This document shows, piece after piece, positions 10,105 to 39,501 of a stretch of 64,000 nucleotides of DNA (position 1 is the first letter of the stretch; each line of letters opens with the position of its first letter). The notes beneath the pieces were generated by a model. The model was given only the letters and a program-made list of their open reading frames with translations. It ran no database searches and was not told where the DNA came from. The translations under genes were made by a program, and so were the position numbers. The stretch is from the NCBI GenBank assembly GCA_949287305.1, contig CASEFX010000019.1:1-64000 (forward strand), given 5' to 3'. Origin of the DNA: an uncultured Sutterella sp. (GTDB taxonomy: Bacteria > Pseudomonadota > Gammaproteobacteria > Burkholderiales > Burkholderiaceae_F).

Positions 10105-10446
10105 ATGAAAAAGACCCCGATCCTCGCCGCGGTTTTCGCCGCACTCTTTGCGGTTTCGTCGGCCTACGCCGCCGAGAACCTCGCCGACCGCCACGCCAAG
10201 CTCGGCTTCAAGTGCGAAGCCTGCCACGCCGGTCAGGCCACGCCCTCCGAACCCCCGATGGAAGCCTGCACGGGCTGCCATCAGATCGAAGCCCTCGTGG
10301 AAAAGACGAAGAACGTCAAGCCCACGAACCCGCACGTTTCGCCCCACTACGGCAACACGCTCGAATGCGTCAATTGCCACATGATGCACGGCGAAAGCAC
10401 GAACTTTTGCGACCAATGTCACCAATTTAACTTCAAGATGCCCTGA
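10105..10446 (+). CDS. Small periplasmic tetraheme cytochrome c, module 1
   Basis: 113 residues with a Sec signal peptide (MKKTPILAAVFAALFAVSSAYA). Four CxxCH heme sites are visible: C37-H41 (CEACH), C55-H59 (CTGCH), C88-H92 (CVNCH) and C102-H106 (CDQCH), plus extra His residues for distal ligation. Size and spacing match the Cytochrom_c3_2 (small tetraheme) group that hands electrons from membrane quinol dehydrogenases to soluble flavoprotein reductases. It follows the Tat flavoprotein as the second gene and is closed by a terminator. The ribosome site is poor, so expression may depend on coupling or a leader structure. Confidence 0.93.
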   Translation: MKKTPILAAVFAALFAVSSAYAAENLADRHAKLGFKCEACHAGQATPSEPPMEACTGCHQIEALVEKTKNVKPTNPHVSPHYGNTLECVNCHMMHGESTNFCDQCHQFNFKMP

Positions 10447-29264: not shown

Positions 29265-30761
29265 ATGACGACCTCCCGACGCCGCTTCCTCGCGGCCGCG
29301 GCCGCGCTTCCCGCCGCGCCCTCCGTTTTCGCCCGCACCGCGGCGACCGACTGGGACGAAACCTTCGACGTCGTGGTCGTGGGTTCCGGCGTTGCCGGAA
29401 CCGTCGCGGCCATCGCCGCCGCCGAAAAGGGCGCCAAGGTGCTCATGATCGAAAAGCTCAATCGTACGGGCGGCACCTCGCGCTTTTCGGGCCTCAACTT
29501 CGCCTGCGTGGGCTCGCCCGAACAGAAAAAGCGCGGCGTCAAGGACAGCCCCGAAGCGCTCGCGCGCGACATGTTCCGCGTCTCGGGCGGCGTAGGTAAT
29601 TATGAACTCGCCCTCGTCATGGCGAAGAACACCGCCCGCGTCGAAAAGTTCTTCACCGACCGCGGCGTCCGTTGGGACGGTCGTCTTCTGAAGCTCGGCG
29701 GCCACAGCGCCGAACGCTGCCTCATCCCCGAAGGCGACGGCGCGGGCCTTCTCGCCGCCCTCACGAAGTACATGGCTGGCCTCAAGAACCTCACGGTTCG
29801 TACTTCCTGCAAGGCCGACGAAGTGCTCTTCGACAAGGACCGCGCTGCGGGCCTTCTCGTTCGCGAAAACTACGCCTTCAGCGAAGATCCCCGCGACGAC
29901 GAAACGAACCGCACGGGCACGCCCCGCCGCATCCGCGCTCTTCGCGCCGTCATTTTTGCGACGGGCGGCTATGCCCGCGACCGCGCCTTCCGCGCCGTGG
30001 AAGTGCCCTTCCTCGACGGCGTCTCCACGACGACGAGCCCGGGAGCGACGGCGGGTGCTCTGAAGACGCTCGTGCGCGCCGGCGCCCGCGCCATGCACCT
30101 CTCGCTCTACCGCTTCGCCTATCCCCTGCCGACCGAAGACATGGTCTGGGGCGTGCTCATTGATCCGGCTACCGGCACGCGCTTCATGAGCGAAGGGGCG
30201 AGCCGCAATGAACTCGCCGTCGGAACGCTGCAGCGCCGCCTCACGAACGGCGACAAGAAGCCCTTCATGATTTATGACGAAAAGGCGCTCGGCAAGTTCC
30301 ACAATCTCAACCGCGTCGGTCGTTCTCTGAACGGCCTCAACGGTCTGGACGGCACGATGTTCCGCTTCGACACGATCGAAGCCCTCGCCGCTCACTACAG
30401 CGCTGATGCGGCCGCCGTCAAGAAGACGCTCGAATCCTACAACCGCGACATCGCCGCGGGCCGCGACGAAGCGTTCGGCAAGCCCTTGGAACGCACCGAA
30501 CGCAAGGTCGAGCCGATCGACATGAAGGGGCCCTTCTACGGCATCGTCATCAGTCCTCGCCTCAACTACACTCCGGGCGGCATCCGTACGAACGAAAAGG
30601 CGCAGGCGCTCGACTGGAACGGCAACCCCATCCCGGGTCTCTACGTAGCGGGCGAAGCCGCGGGCGGTCTGCACGGACAGGAACGCATGACGGCCTGCTC
30701 CATGCCCGACTGCTCGGTCTTCGGCCTCATCGCCGGGGAAAACGCCGCCGAACATGCCTGA
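29265..30761 (+). CDS. Tat-exported FAD flavoprotein reductase, module 2
   Basis: 498 residues. The leader TTSRRRFLAAAAALPAAPSVFA is a Tat signal (SRRRFL). The FAD fold begins FDVVVVGSGVAGTVAAIAA and closes with GLYVAGEAAGGLHGQERMTAC. The catalytic half includes YNRDIAAGRDEAFGKPLE, common to fumarate/urocanate-reductase-like proteins. It lacks heme or FMN domains; the tetraheme cytochrome encoded just downstream is its probable donor. AAGGAG precedes ATG 29265. The closing motif differs from modules 1 and 3 (GQERMTACSMPDCSVFG), suggesting a different substrate group. It lies downstream of the kinase/regulator pair that probably controls it. Confidence 0.9.
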   Translation: MTTSRRRFLAAAAALPAAPSVFARTAATDWDETFDVVVVGSGVAGTVAAIAAAEKGAKVLMIEKLNRTGGTSRFSGLNFACVGSPEQKKRGVKDSPEALARDMFRVSGGVGNYELALVMAKNTARVEKFFTDRGVRWDGRLLKLGGHSAERCLIPEGDGAGLLAALTKYMAGLKNLTVRTSCKADEVLFDKDRAAGLLVRENYAFSEDPRDDETNRTGTPRRIRALRAVIFATGGYARDRAFRAVEVPFLDGVSTTTSPGATAGALKTLVRAGARAMHLSLYRFAYPLPTEDMVWGVLIDPATGTRFMSEGASRNELAVGTLQRRLTNGDKKPFMIYDEKALGKFHNLNRVGRSLNGLNGLDGTMFRFDTIEALAAHYSADAAAVKKTLESYNRDIAAGRDEAFGKPLERTERKVEPIDMKGPFYGIVISPRLNYTPGGIRTNEKAQALDWNGNPIPGLYVAGEAAGGLHGQERMTACSMPDCSVFGLIAGENAAEHA

Positions 30762-30789
30762 TCAACGACGAAACAGTAAGGAATACGCC

Positions 30790-31179
30790 ATGCGTACGCT
30801 CATTTGCACCGCGCTTCTCGCGCTCGCCTTCGGCTCCGCGCAAGCCGCCGACCAGATGTCCAAGCACGCCGAACGGGGCGTGGCCTGCACCACCTGCCAC
30901 AAGGGCGACTTCAAGGCGCCTTCAGTCGACGTCTGCACGGGCTGCCACAGCCGCGACGCCCTCGCGAAGGCCACCGAATCGATGAACTTTGAAGCGGTTC
31001 TCAAGAACCCGAAGACGGGCAAGGAAACGCGTCATACCGCGCTCATCAACGTTCACGACAGCTACCACTTCGGCCGCACGGAAAACTGCTTTGACTGCCA
31101 CCGCGAGCACAAGCCGTCGACCAACCAGTGCGCCACCTGCCACGACATTGAAGCGTGGAAGATGCCGACTCCCAAGTGA
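30790..31179 (+). CDS. Small periplasmic tetraheme cytochrome c, module 2
   Basis: 129 residues. Sec signal MRTLICTALLALAFGSAQAA, then four heme sites CTTCH, CTGCH, CFDCH and CATCH with extra His. It is related in layout to the module 1 cytochrome but with a longer insert between hemes 2 and 3 (FEAVLKNPKTGKETRHTAL). ATG 30790 has AAGGAA 7 bases upstream; the longer frame from 30754 lacks a signal peptide start. It lies 28 bp after the flavoprotein gene and ends the operon. Confidence 0.93.
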   Translation: MRTLICTALLALAFGSAQAADQMSKHAERGVACTTCHKGDFKAPSVDVCTGCHSRDALAKATESMNFEAVLKNPKTGKETRHTALINVHDSYHFGRTENCFDCHREHKPSTNQCATCHDIEAWKMPTPK

Positions 31180-31204: not shown

Positions 31205-31244
31205 ACGGGCGTGCCGCAATCCTTCGGGCGGCGCGCCCGTTTTT
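31205..31244 (+). terminator. Terminator of the module 2 operon
   Basis: ACGGGCGTGCCGC (31205-31217) pairs with GCGGCGCGCCCGT (31228-31240), one wobble, followed by TTTTT. Confidence 0.88.
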
Positions 31245-31251
31245 CATTTTT

Positions 31252-31300
31252 GTTCAGCACATTGAACGAAAACCCCTCGATTTTGTTCAGCGAACTGAAT
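31252..31300. repeat. Two GTTCAG-N4-CTGAAC palindromes, downstream block
   Basis: GTTCAGcacaTTGAAC (31252-31267) and GTTCAGcgaaCTGAAT (31285-31300), 33 bp apart start to start and each flanked by T-runs before and A-runs after. They lie just past the stop of the ATPase gene. The same unit recurs three times upstream of that gene with the same 33-bp period. Confidence 0.85.
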
Positions 31301-31346
31301 AAAACACGCCTTTCGTATTTTTTTTGCAGTAGTTATCGGAAGGATC

Positions 31347-32627
31347 TCAGTTCTCTATCTGCAAAAGCCACTTCCAAGCAGGAACCACTTCTACCAGTCC
31401 CGACGGGGTTTCAAGAGTGGCTTCCTCTTCGAGCGTAATCACCAGTCTTTTTCTCACGGGCAGAACTTTCTCCAACTTTTCTAACGCGCCTACTTCTCGT
31501 CTCATCGTCTCCGGGGCCTTTAAGAGATCAACACAGACTTGGATCGCTGTTTCTTCTTCGGGAAGATAAAAATCCACCTCAATCTTGTCTTTGAAATAGA
31601 AGACAGTATCCTGCAATCCGTGTCGACGCAAAAGCTCCACACCAACCAAATTCTCGAGAAGATCAGCCTTGGCATCGTGCTGAAGAAGAGAAATCAAACC
31701 GTTGTCCACAAAGTAGTACTTCTTGTGACTTTCTCTTTCTTGGAGTTTTCCGTATATGTTCTCGATCGGGAGTAGCAGACATGCGTCACATGCATATGTC
31801 ACGTAATTGATTACCGTTGCTTTAGAAATACTCGTTCCTGCGGTGCCGACGATACTTGCGATACGTGAGAAAGAGAGCGGTTGTCCAACACTCTCAGCAA
31901 TCTTCTTCAACATCACTCTCAACGGAAAAATATTATTAATTCCGTTCCTAACCGCAATATCTCCCAAATAAATTTTTTGGAAAAGGTTGTTCAAGTACTC
32001 TCGCGTCTCCGCGAGATGTATGCACTCAGGGAAACCACCTTTTTCGAAAAAGCGATTAAAGACACGACGAATCTCCGCCTGTCCGGAAGTAGAGGAAAGT
32101 GCCGCCGAGTCGAAAACTACTCCCGATGAACTCAAAGCCTCACGAAAACTAAGCGGGAAAACGTTGACGGACATGAATCGTCCACCTAGCGCAGCGGCAA
32201 CATCCACACTCAACATTTTGGCATTCGAGCCCGTGATGAAAACTTCGGCCTCTGCGTCGGCCATTCTGCGCGCAAATCTCTCCCAGTCTTTAATGATCTG
32301 AATTTCATCCAAAAAAAGAGTAGGAAGTGAGGAGCTACCACTCAACTCCGCGTGCGCCAACAAAATATTATTGAAATCTGAGGCCTCAAACCCCATAAGA
32401 CGCTCATCCTCAAAGTTGAGGTAGAGCATATCGTTCCACGTTCTTCCTTCCTTCAACAGATGCTGAATTTGTGCATACAACAAATACGATTTACCTGAAC
32501 GACGGACACCAACAAGCACGCACCGCGGGATAGCCGGGAGCGATATTTCCCGAGGAAAGATGCGTTTACCTTCCACAAGTTGGCGGTTGTCGGCAAGAAC
32601 ATTGCGAAGAGTTTCCATGCTGATCAT
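31347..32627 (-). CDS. AAA-family ATPase with a C-terminal DUF4143-type domain
   Basis: 426 residues. Walker A is GVRRSGKS (40-47), Walker B LFLDEIQ (104-110), with the sensor stretch VFITGSNAKMLS. The C-terminal half carries the DUF4143 pattern: YFVDNGLISLL, ENLVGVELLRRHG and KIEVDFYLPEE...AIQVCVDL, a nuclease-like fold remnant. The role of this family is unknown; links to mobile or defence-like functions have been suggested. ATG 32627 has GAGG 5 bases upstream. The gene is clearly AT-richer than its neighbours and uses codons they avoid (ATA, TTA, AAT), a sign of recent transfer. Palindromic 33-bp-period repeats flank it on both sides. Confidence 0.88.
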   Translation of the reverse strand: MISMETLRNVLADNRQLVEGKRIFPREISLPAIPRCVLVGVRRSGKSYLLYAQIQHLLKEGRTWNDMLYLNFEDERLMGFEASDFNNILLAHAELSGSSSLPTLFLDEIQIIKDWERFARRMADAEAEVFITGSNAKMLSVDVAAALGGRFMSVNVFPLSFREALSSSGVVFDSAALSSTSGQAEIRRVFNRFFEKGGFPECIHLAETREYLNNLFQKIYLGDIAVRNGINNIFPLRVMLKKIAESVGQPLSFSRIASIVGTAGTSISKATVINYVTYACDACLLLPIENIYGKLQERESHKKYYFVDNGLISLLQHDAKADLLENLVGVELLRRHGLQDTVFYFKDKIEVDFYLPEEETAIQVCVDLLKAPETMRREVGALEKLEKVLPVRKRLVITLEEEATLETPSGLVEVVPAWKWLLQIEN

Positions 32628-32727
32628 CTTGACCTCGACGCGTATGAAGGGAGACGTGTGTCGTCTCACAGTCTTTTATGAAATCAACTAGACAGTGACG
32701 ACTGAAAAGGGCCATCAAACCACTTTC

Positions 32728-32809
32728 GTTCAGTCGAATGAACAAAATTATAGTGAAATCGTTCAGTGCACTGAACAAAAATAAACATATTTTGTTCAGC
32801 GGACTGAAC
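32728..32809. repeat. Three GTTCAG-N4-CTGAAC palindromes, upstream block
   Basis: GTTCAGtcgaATGAAC (32728-32743), GTTCAGtgcaCTGAAC (32761-32776) and GTTCAGcggaCTGAAC (32794-32809), exactly 33 bp apart. A perfect minus-strand -10 (TATAAT, 32747-32752) lies between copies one and two, so two copies bracket the probable promoter of the ATPase gene. The 17-bp spacers are AT-rich and differ from each other. Confidence 0.85.
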
Positions 32810-37999: not shown

Positions 38000-38054
38000 A
38001 TTTGTACGCACATTAGAAGGAAAATAATACCTTCACCGATTTGTTCGCACAAAT
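38000..38054 (+). promoter_or_regulatory. hydG promoter with two ATTTGT-NCGC-ACAAAT operator copies
   Basis: TTGTAC (38002-38007), 17 bases, then TAATAC (38025-38030) form a sigma-70 promoter. ATTTGTACGCACATTA (38000-38015) overlaps the -35 and ATTTGTTCGCACAAAT (38039-38054), a perfect palindrome around TCGC, covers the start site. Centres are 39 bp apart. The arrangement suits a repressor or redox regulator that blocks both promoter elements. Confidence 0.68.
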
Positions 38055-38079
38055 GATATCCCGCCCGGAGACATCTTCC

Positions 38080-39501
38080 ATGTACGATCCGAAATCCCGC
38101 GTGGCTGAAGAGTTCATCTGTCACGAAGAAATTCTCGACACCCTCGCCTACGCCGAAGAACACAAGCACGACCGCCCCCTGATCGACACGCTTCTCGAAA
38201 AGGCCGCCTCCTTCCGCGGTCTCACGCACCGTGAAGCGGCCGTGCTGCTCGCCTGCGACTTGGAAGACGTCAACCAGAAGATTCTCGACACGGCCGTGCG
38301 CGTGAAGGAACACATCTACGGCACGCGCATCGTGCTCTTTGCGCCGCTCTACCTCTCGAACTACTGCGTCAACACCTGCACGTACTGCCCGTATCACGCG
38401 AAGAACAAGCACATCCAGCGCAAGAAGCTCACGCAGGAAGAAATCGAACGCGAAGTCATCGCCCTGCAGGACCTCGGCCACAAGCGTCTTCTTCTCGAAG
38501 CGGGCGAACATCAGAAGTACAACCCGATCGAATACATCCTCGAATCGATCAAGACGATCTACTCGATCAAGCACAAGAACGGCGCCATCCGCCGTTTGAA
38601 CGTCAACATCGCCGCGACGACAGTTGAAAACTACCGCAAGCTCCACGAAGCGCAGATCGGCACCTATCAGCTCTTCCAGGAAACCTATCACAAGGAAAGC
38701 TACAAGCTTCTCCATCCGAAGGGACCGAAGTCCGACTACGCCTACCACACCGAAGCGCACGACCGCGCCATGGAAGGCGGCATCGACGACGTGGGTCTCG
38801 GCGTTCTCTTCGGCCTTGAACACTGCCAGTACGACTTCGTGGGCCTGCTCATGCACGCCGAACACCTCGAAGCCGTCTGGGGCGTGGGTCCGCACACGAT
38901 TTCGGTGCCGCGCATCTGCCCGGCCGACGACATCGACCCGAACACCTTCAGCAACGCCGTTCCGGACGACCTCTTCCTCAAGATCGTCGCTCTGATCCGC
39001 CTCGCCGTTCCCTACACCGGCATGATCATGTCGACGCGCGAAAGCGCCCGCATCCGCACGGAAGCCCTTCGCCTCGGCATTTCGCAGATCTCCGGCGGCT
39101 CGCGCACGTCGGTGGGCGGCTATACGCTCGAACCCGAAGACGAAGGCGAAAACACGGCGCAGTTTGAAACGTCCGACCGCCGCAGTCTCGACCAAATCGT
39201 GAAGTGGCTCCTCGAAAACAAGTACCTGCCCTCCTTCTGCACGGCCTGCTACCGCGCCGGCCGTACGGGCGACCGCTTCATGCAGTTTGCGAAGACGGGC
39301 GAAATCGCCACCTACTGCCAGGCCAACGCCGTGATGACGATCAAGGAATACCTCTGCGACTACGCTTCGGCCGCGACGCGCAAGGCGGGCGAAGAAGTGC
39401 TCAAGGCGGAACTTCCGAAGATCCCGCACGAAAAGATCCGCGCCGCCGCGGAAAAGCGCCTCATCCGCATTGAAGCCGGTGAGCGTGACTTCCGCTTCTG
39501 A
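38080..39501 (+). CDS. hydG: [FeFe]-hydrogenase maturase HydG (radical SAM tyrosine lyase)
   Basis: 473 residues, the normal HydG length. The radical-SAM cluster motif is CVNTCTYC (C96, C100, C103). The C-terminal motif that binds the auxiliary cluster, C387-x2-C390-x22-C413 (CTAC ... ATYC), is intact and separates HydG from ThiH. HydG cleaves tyrosine to make the CO and CN ligands of the hydrogenase H-cluster. ATG 38080 has GGAG 9 bases upstream; upstream in-frame ATG 38053 and TTG 38041 fall inside the operator. It is monocistronic with a strong terminator, and hydE, hydF or a hydrogenase gene is not in this window. Confidence 0.93.
   Translation: MYDPKSRVAEEFICHEEILDTLAYAEEHKHDRPLIDTLLEKAASFRGLTHREAAVLLACDLEDVNQKILDTAVRVKEHIYGTRIVLFAPLYLSNYCVNTCTYCPYHAKNKHIQRKKLTQEEIEREVIALQDLGHKRLLLEAGEHQKYNPIEYILESIKTIYSIKHKNGAIRRLNVNIAATTVENYRKLHEAQIGTYQLFQETYHKESYKLLHPKGPKSDYAYHTEAHDRAMEGGIDDVGLGVLFGLEHCQYDFVGLLMHAEHLEAVWGVGPHTISVPRICPADDIDPNTFSNAVPDDLFLKIVALIRLAVPYTGMIMSTRESARIRTEALRLGISQISGGSRTSVGGYTLEPEDEGENTAQFETSDRRSLDQIVKWLLENKYLPSFCTACYRAGRTGDRFMQFAKTGEIATYCQANAVMTIKEYLCDYASAATRKAGEEVLKAELPKIPHEKIRAAAEKRLIRIEAGERDFRF

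Follow-up and report, generated by a model that had tools for sequence, protein, structure and literature searches.

What are evenly spaced palindromes doing on both sides of a single ATPase gene? The question is raised by a 64,000-nucleotide stretch, here called the window, at positions 1 to 64,000 of contig CASEFX010000019.1 from an uncultured Sutterella sp. (assembly GCA_949287305.1; genome G000 below, with other genomes, contigs, and sampled loci labeled G, C, and L). A minus-strand gene in the window codes for an ATPase with AAA_14 and DUF4143 domains and is flanked by five 16-bp palindromes in two blocks, with a step of exactly 33 bp within each block. We consider it likely, with a probability of roughly 0.6, that the palindromes are the cognate operator of this ATPase: phased sites that would be bound by its predicted helix-turn-helix, would repress its own promoter, and would travel with the gene as a compact unit. 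The features concerned are:

31252 to 31267, no strand: palindrome L1, GTTCAGCACATTGAAC, on the far side of the gene (motif scan and shuffles)
31285 to 31300, no strand: palindrome L2, GTTCAGCGAACTGAAT, left edge of a 1476-bp difference from the sister species
31347 to 32630, minus strand: ATPase gene with AAA_14 and DUF4143 domains, 427 aa, PADLOC class PDC-S01; ATG at 32630, with a longer GTG start at 32669 possible
32728 to 32743, no strand: palindrome R1, GTTCAGTCGAATGAAC (motif scan and shuffles)
32747 to 32752, minus strand: TATAAT, a putative promoter element within the R1–R2 spacer of 17 bp
32761 to 32776, no strand: palindrome R2, GTTCAGTGCACTGAAC, at which the 1476-bp difference ends on the right
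32794 to 32809, no strand: palindrome R3, GTTCAGCGGACTGAAC, which matches the final unit of the sister-species array

Palindromes at the ATPase gene and its relatives

A first-pass annotation had placed palindromes at 31252, 31285, 32728, 32761, and 32794, with an exact 33-bp period inside each block and no copies elsewhere in the window. All of this was recovered: five sites have at most one mismatch, and there are no others. Shuffled windows yielded a mean of 0.09 sites and none of 100 shuffles contained five, ruling out a chance repeat as their source. The whole genome (2.6 Mb, 39 contigs) has three further one-mismatch sites, all single and on contigs C6, C7, and C34, and no second 33-bp-spaced pair was found elsewhere in it with up to three mismatches allowed. 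The 33-bp step is slightly above three helical turns, and the spacings of 22–23 and 31–33 bp found across the DUF4143 family (below) are consistent with about two and three turns.

Arrays of the same kind occur with related genes at other loci. Four relatives are 57–66% identical to the window ATPase: 60% (G019), 58% (G026), and 65% (G063), plus a frame-broken one (G073). The first two came from a search of 61 genomes, and the last two were added by the family search. All four have two to three palindromes of the GTTCA-N6-TGAAC type, some of them mismatched, at 32- to 33-bp spacing directly upstream of the start, and each sits in a different gene neighborhood. A repeated palindrome directly upstream of the gene and conserved in relatives was thereby identified for the window ATPase. 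The first-pass annotation had made its functional link depend on palindromes being present around homologous genes; homologs do carry arrays, and repeats at fixed spacing extend through the DUF4143 family. By eye, palindromes of other kinds were seen at similar spacing for a number of the more distant DUF4143 genes. A scan of genome contigs gave one distant locus. The relative in G073 (L084:8777-10035) is broken by a frameshift and adjoins a tRNA-Thr gene.

PF13635 is present in at least 55 of the 67 genomes of the taxonomic family, with up to 18 per genome among the matches listed. Eighty loci were picked by hand, roughly by domain score among those matches, and some that lay close to a contig end or had a short frame were passed over; 69 were retained after removal of ten without a P-loop pattern and one with too short an upstream stretch. 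Upstream windows were compared with themselves at each offset from 14 to 60, and 11 or more identical bases out of 14 counted as a match. Windows with such a match peak at offsets 32 (18 windows), 23 (9), 33 (8), and 22 (6), and shuffles gave 0.4–0.7. An offset of 22–23 or 31–33 is present upstream of 38 of 69 DUF4143 genes compared to 2 of 63 other genes, a control set that excludes L010 and 11 positions at array loci, and in 3 of 69 windows downstream of DUF4143 genes. When genes are clustered at 50% identity, 13 of 23 clusters have these offsets, and five other sets of five offsets gave 5, 3, 1, 1, and 2. A second score based on paired palindromes reached P ≤ 0.05 for 30 of 69 genes and 8 of 80 controls, five of these eight being array loci. 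The same offsets were found for 8 of 27 genes in a phylum sample of 150 genomes (30 loci, minus two without a recognizable gene and one from G000 that the family set already contained; the start of L196 is doubtful). Among nine named loci from other phyla, on plasmids or gut contigs, 32- to 33-bp repeats occur in three, scored without shuffles (two Bacteroides and one archaeal Methanomethylovorans); no such repeats were found in the other six, where the Enterococcus start is misplaced.

The array motif differs by ATPase lineage and is common almost only to close relatives of the protein, which is the pattern of a cognate operator. Evenly spaced repeats lie upstream of many relatives and their sequence is lineage-specific; they are therefore likely the sites that the protein would bind to control its own gene. 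The ATPase itself would bind the phased sites through its predicted helix-turn-helix, with the sites along one face of the DNA. The array would overlap the promoter, such that binding shuts the promoter and represses the gene, and ATP or an infection signal may alter the ATPase and release it. Array copies past the gene and solitary arrays would be traces left where the unit was gained or lost as arrays recombined. A conserved phased array that changes in step with the protein supplies many lineages of PDC-S01 with a short predicted DNA target, so one protein and one oligonucleotide would suffice for direct tests of binding, autoregulation, and what ATP does. The arrangement also suggests how such genes are packaged for transfer, as operator plus gene.

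Array and gene as a probable unit of transfer

Operator and gene together are most likely the unit of transfer, as judged from comparisons of aligned loci. The first-pass annotation had proposed comparing related strains for presence or absence of 31.25–32.81 kb, and the sister species, of the same genus (G001, flanks ~92% identical), does lack the gene while keeping three phased palindromes at the same locus. A tblastn search for the ATPase gene in a 17-kb stretch of G001 gave no match. The two alleles differ by just 1476 bp between L2 and R2, and because this difference lies between two palindromes, a large genomic island was ruled out. By eye, the second spacer in G001 is nearer to the L1–L2 spacer than to the R2–R3 spacer, so neither a deletion nor an insertion history is clean. 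At the G019 site, the left neighbor is found in eight other genomes of that genus and the right neighbor beside it in seven. No ATPase gene or phased array was found at the equivalent site in the eight genomes (five of them mapped). Because these relatives show neither, array and gene were gained together or lost together at this site.

Nineteen locus pairs share at least 78% nucleotide identity, and 16 are informative once two overlapping neighbors and one match to another gene are set aside. Homology begins 26–100 bp upstream of the estimated start in 12 of the 16, and the upstream flank is also shared in four. L153 and L171, which come from different genera, form the clearest pair: they are 91.5% identical across 1330 bp, a stretch that begins just ahead of the first array unit and extends to the first copy past the stop. 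The L153 flank has repeated matches in G005 itself and two short ones in G008, and is uninformative for an empty site. Much of the L171 upstream flank is common to seven of nine other genomes; its other flank has no match in the stretch beyond at six loci compared, so an empty site is not definable. A transposable element would be expected in several copies per genome, with target-site duplications. Among the 97 sampled loci, which are not every copy of any genome, no within-genome pair reached 78% nucleotide identity over 500 bp except overlapping neighbors in G014; target-site duplications were not systematically searched. A relative occurs in 172 Acinetobacter plasmid records. When five of the plasmids were compared, one had nothing in common with the other four except a stretch that runs from 109 bp ahead of the gene to 88 bp past it.

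Two further observations concern these loci. A sequence of ~31 bp just past the L171 unit (L171:2102-2133) has ~30 copies in genome G026 and is REP-like. On G014:C1, a DUF4143 cluster at 2.374–2.409 Mb has seven genes within ~35 kb among the matches listed, and its loci are L104, L111, L125, L129, L130, and L135.

Arrays on both sides of the gene are not the rule. A gene's own motif recurs within 300 bp past the stop in 7 of 48 genes compared to 10 of 720 swapped pairs. The 48 include five hand-added genes, two of which (the window gene and L088) had already shown a far copy; leaving out all five gives 5 of 43, and L153 and L171 are near relatives. In L124, L148, and L153, both units recur past the stop as a direct copy; L190 has a shorter copy (one unit with its surroundings and a start codon), and L171 and L088 have a single unit. 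An origin of the far array from tandem genes, one of them since lost, was rejected: the 750–1497 bp downstream of six genes showed no second-gene remnant. The first-pass annotation had offered two readings, an operator array or an element whose ends are marked by the arrays; arrays at homologs and a transferable unit were borne out, and arrays on both sides as a general layout were not.

Arrays also occur apart from the gene. Of nine GTTCA-type array loci, five are at a cognate gene and four are not (G001, G061, a second one in G063, and G067), with the G019 locus found via its gene rather than the pattern. Of four GGGATT-type loci, three are at a cognate gene and one is not (G071). The G067 array lies between an AlaX-like gene and an ATPase gene of another DUF4143 lineage. 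The second G063 array (L082:1518-1566) is 7.3 kb from the array at the ATPase gene, between DUF362 and subtilase autotransporter genes. Either lost units or unfilled docking sites would account for the solitary arrays.

The ATPase and its surroundings

The DUF4143-type assignment made in the first pass agrees with Pfam, where both PF13173 (AAA_14; 102 bits, cut-off 27) and PF13635 (DUF4143; 49.7 bits, cut-off 28.1) were identified. The protein matches the PADLOC model PDLC04787 (PDC-S01) at 304.6 bits over residues 38–424, a model supplied with no curated cut-off, and five further PDC-S01 models. This match makes it a PDC-S01 phage-defense candidate with a putative protective role. NCBIfam gave no match, nor did a PDB sequence search with E values of up to 1. 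Three regions of the protein are distinguished:

32031 to 32525, minus strand: AAA+ ATPase core, codons 36–200, Walker B aspartate conserved
31743 to 31928, minus strand: predicted helix-turn-helix, codons 235–296, with model helices at 254–263 and 270–282; a putative assignment
31371 to 31733, minus strand: putative PD-(D/E)XK-like domain, codons 300–420, the name taken in part from PMC12988326

The Walker B aspartate is conserved in 98 of 100 aligned DUF4143 proteins. Walker A conservation is no test because most of these proteins were selected by their Walker A motif. In the model, a predicted helix-turn-helix follows the ATPase core. The closest solved folds to residues 17–318 are the archaeal ATPases SSO1545 (PDB 2fna) and PABY2304 (PDB 2qen), from a comparison via the PDB that was a second look and barely covers residues past 358. 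The Foldseek rank 1 match is Cdc6/Orc1 on origin DNA, with TM-scores of only about 0.3. The PD-(D/E)XK-like domain retains E326 and D353, but the E-x-K pair is replaced by C366 and D368 (column 366 is E in 95 of 100 aligned proteins and column 368 is K in 93), and the pair is lost in the subfamily of the window protein. An active PD-(D/E)XK nuclease was rejected, as the protein keeps D353 without the E-x-K residues.

The ATG at 32630, picked by comparison with relatives, is ~97 bp away from the nearest palindrome. A TATAAT had been noted between two upstream copies; it is located there, at 32747–32752 on the minus strand, and relative L013 has one at the same spacer position, but it is not among the matches of a promoter scan that also requires a −35 element. 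As the first pass had observed, the gene is AT-richer than its neighbors (G+C of 0.466 compared to 0.613 and 0.667, and 0.626 for the window). The left block sits between the 3′ ends of two convergent genes, preceded by a terminator-like hairpin of the cytochrome gene (31225–31239).

The genus is rich in small multihaem cytochrome genes (4–15 matches per genome; in the window at 10114–10443 and 29265–31179), which often adjoin FAD-binding oxidoreductase genes. A near-palindrome pair, ATTTGTACGCACATTA and ATTTGTTCGCACAAAT, 39 bp apart, lies upstream of the gene at 38052–39501 and is kept in the sister species. This gene also has a counterpart in L010, and from its sequence we take it to code for a radical-SAM enzyme.

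Alternative explanations and known systems

Several results weigh against the array as the operator of the ATPase. No repeat at the 22–23 or 31–33 offsets was found for 31 of the 69 genes in the family sample and 19 of the 27 in the phylum sample, and a number of genes without a phased repeat have a single long inverted repeat close to the start instead. The start codons of the sampled genes are estimates. The promoter scan gave no sigma-70 match for the ATPase gene. Five of the 13 array loci lack an adjoining cognate gene, which a pure operator would not require. That the predicted recognition helix tracks the motif was also tried and rejected. In six motif groups chosen by hand, helix compared to core conservation was 88 and 75% (GGGATT), 100 and 79% (TGTGATTT), 90 and 85% (TTTACAATTGGACG), 60 and 69% (GTTCA), 64 and 63% (CCATA), and 56 and 56% (TTTAAAC). 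The comparison gives no support because only three of the six groups, GTTCA not among them, keep the helix better than the core.

The gene-free array in G001 and its 1476-bp allele difference would also suit an attachment or target site, where DUF4143 units enter and leave arrays, solitary arrays are empty sites, paired arrays are two ends, and the ATPase acts on the array through its nuclease-like domain. We regard this as unlikely. The excess of motifs past the stop, the direct copies of both units, the lack of a second-gene trace downstream, and homology that starts 26–100 bp upstream of the start in most informative pairs all agree with it. However, most genes have an array on one side only, the G019 unit sits where relatives have no array, near-identical within-genome copies are absent from the sampled loci apart from overlapping neighbors, and the window subfamily has lost the E-x-K residues; gene loss by ordinary recombination between arrays would leave the same footprint. 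Equally tentative is a combination in which the array is at once operator and docking site, and an Orc/STAND-like ATPase silences its gene, senses invading DNA, and lets the unit enter or leave arrays. PDC-S01/DUF4143 genes might then be the smallest self-recognizing mobile genes, and solitary arrays their empty docks.

Binding of the arrays by a separate host regulator is improbable. In its favor, DNA binding by the ATPase is a prediction, and solitary arrays lie near other genes, such as the autotransporter and AlaX-like genes. Against it, each ATPase lineage has a different motif, common almost only to close relatives of the protein, the array in G000 is at the ATPase locus only, and every DUF4143 gene in a genome would call for a regulator of its own. 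Less probable still is a chance or mutational minisatellite, or a set of hairpins (terminators or REP sequences), with no relation to the gene. Each unit could fold into a hairpin, the G001 units resemble tandem 33-bp duplicates, and the left block lies at convergent gene ends, yet the same motif and spacing recur beside relatives at unrelated loci, offsets peak family-wide, and there is no dispersal through the genome as in REP. A REP/RAYT system was rejected on the single array locus in G000 and the AAA_14/DUF4143 protein. A CRISPR array was also rejected, as the repeats differ among copies, the spacers are 17 bp, and no cas domain was found in the ATPase gene and three neighbors scanned.

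The operator reading was compared to known systems. PDC-S01 is described as the fourth most common defense system or candidate across all prokaryotes (PMC12988326) and the most frequent individual locus across the cattle breeds studied (PMC13356809). The former also describes ATPase domains fused to the PD-(D/E)XK superfamily and states that most such candidates of the core defensome await validation. PMC4406477 includes a Thermus gene whose listed motifs are AAA 14, DUF4143, and HTH. The descriptions available from PMC12988326 and PMC13356809 name no DNA target and give abundance and guilt-by-embedding, with no operator array and no tested function. A literature search for DUF4143, PDC-S01, and COG1373 found no report of such arrays among the papers listed, with most subscription papers and all preprints outside its scope. 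The window locus is like PDC-S01 in being a single, patchy, horizontally spread gene, and unlike the ATPase with a PD-(D/E)XK-type domain in that its subfamily lacks the E-x-K pair.

The archaeal AAA+/STAND ATPases SSO1545 and PABY2304 share the closest folds but no detectable PDB sequence match at the E value above. Orc1/Cdc6 initiators act on origin repeats and Rep proteins bind iterons, for which a phasing near 22 bp is typical; both resemble the window locus in placing an AAA+ protein with a winged helix on repeated sites. The window array differs in lying at the gene's own start, with no origin or replicon shown and TM-scores of ~0.3. REP sequences with RAYT transposases likewise have a lone gene between palindromes of its own, and copies that lack the gene are known, but the window array is at one genome locus and not dispersed, and the protein is different. 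Toxin-antitoxin systems and MalT-type STAND regulators are classical autoregulated operators with tandem palindromes at their own promoter region, as in the window. Unlike these, the window locus codes for an ATPase with a nuclease-like domain rather than a small antitoxin, and the whole unit is portable.
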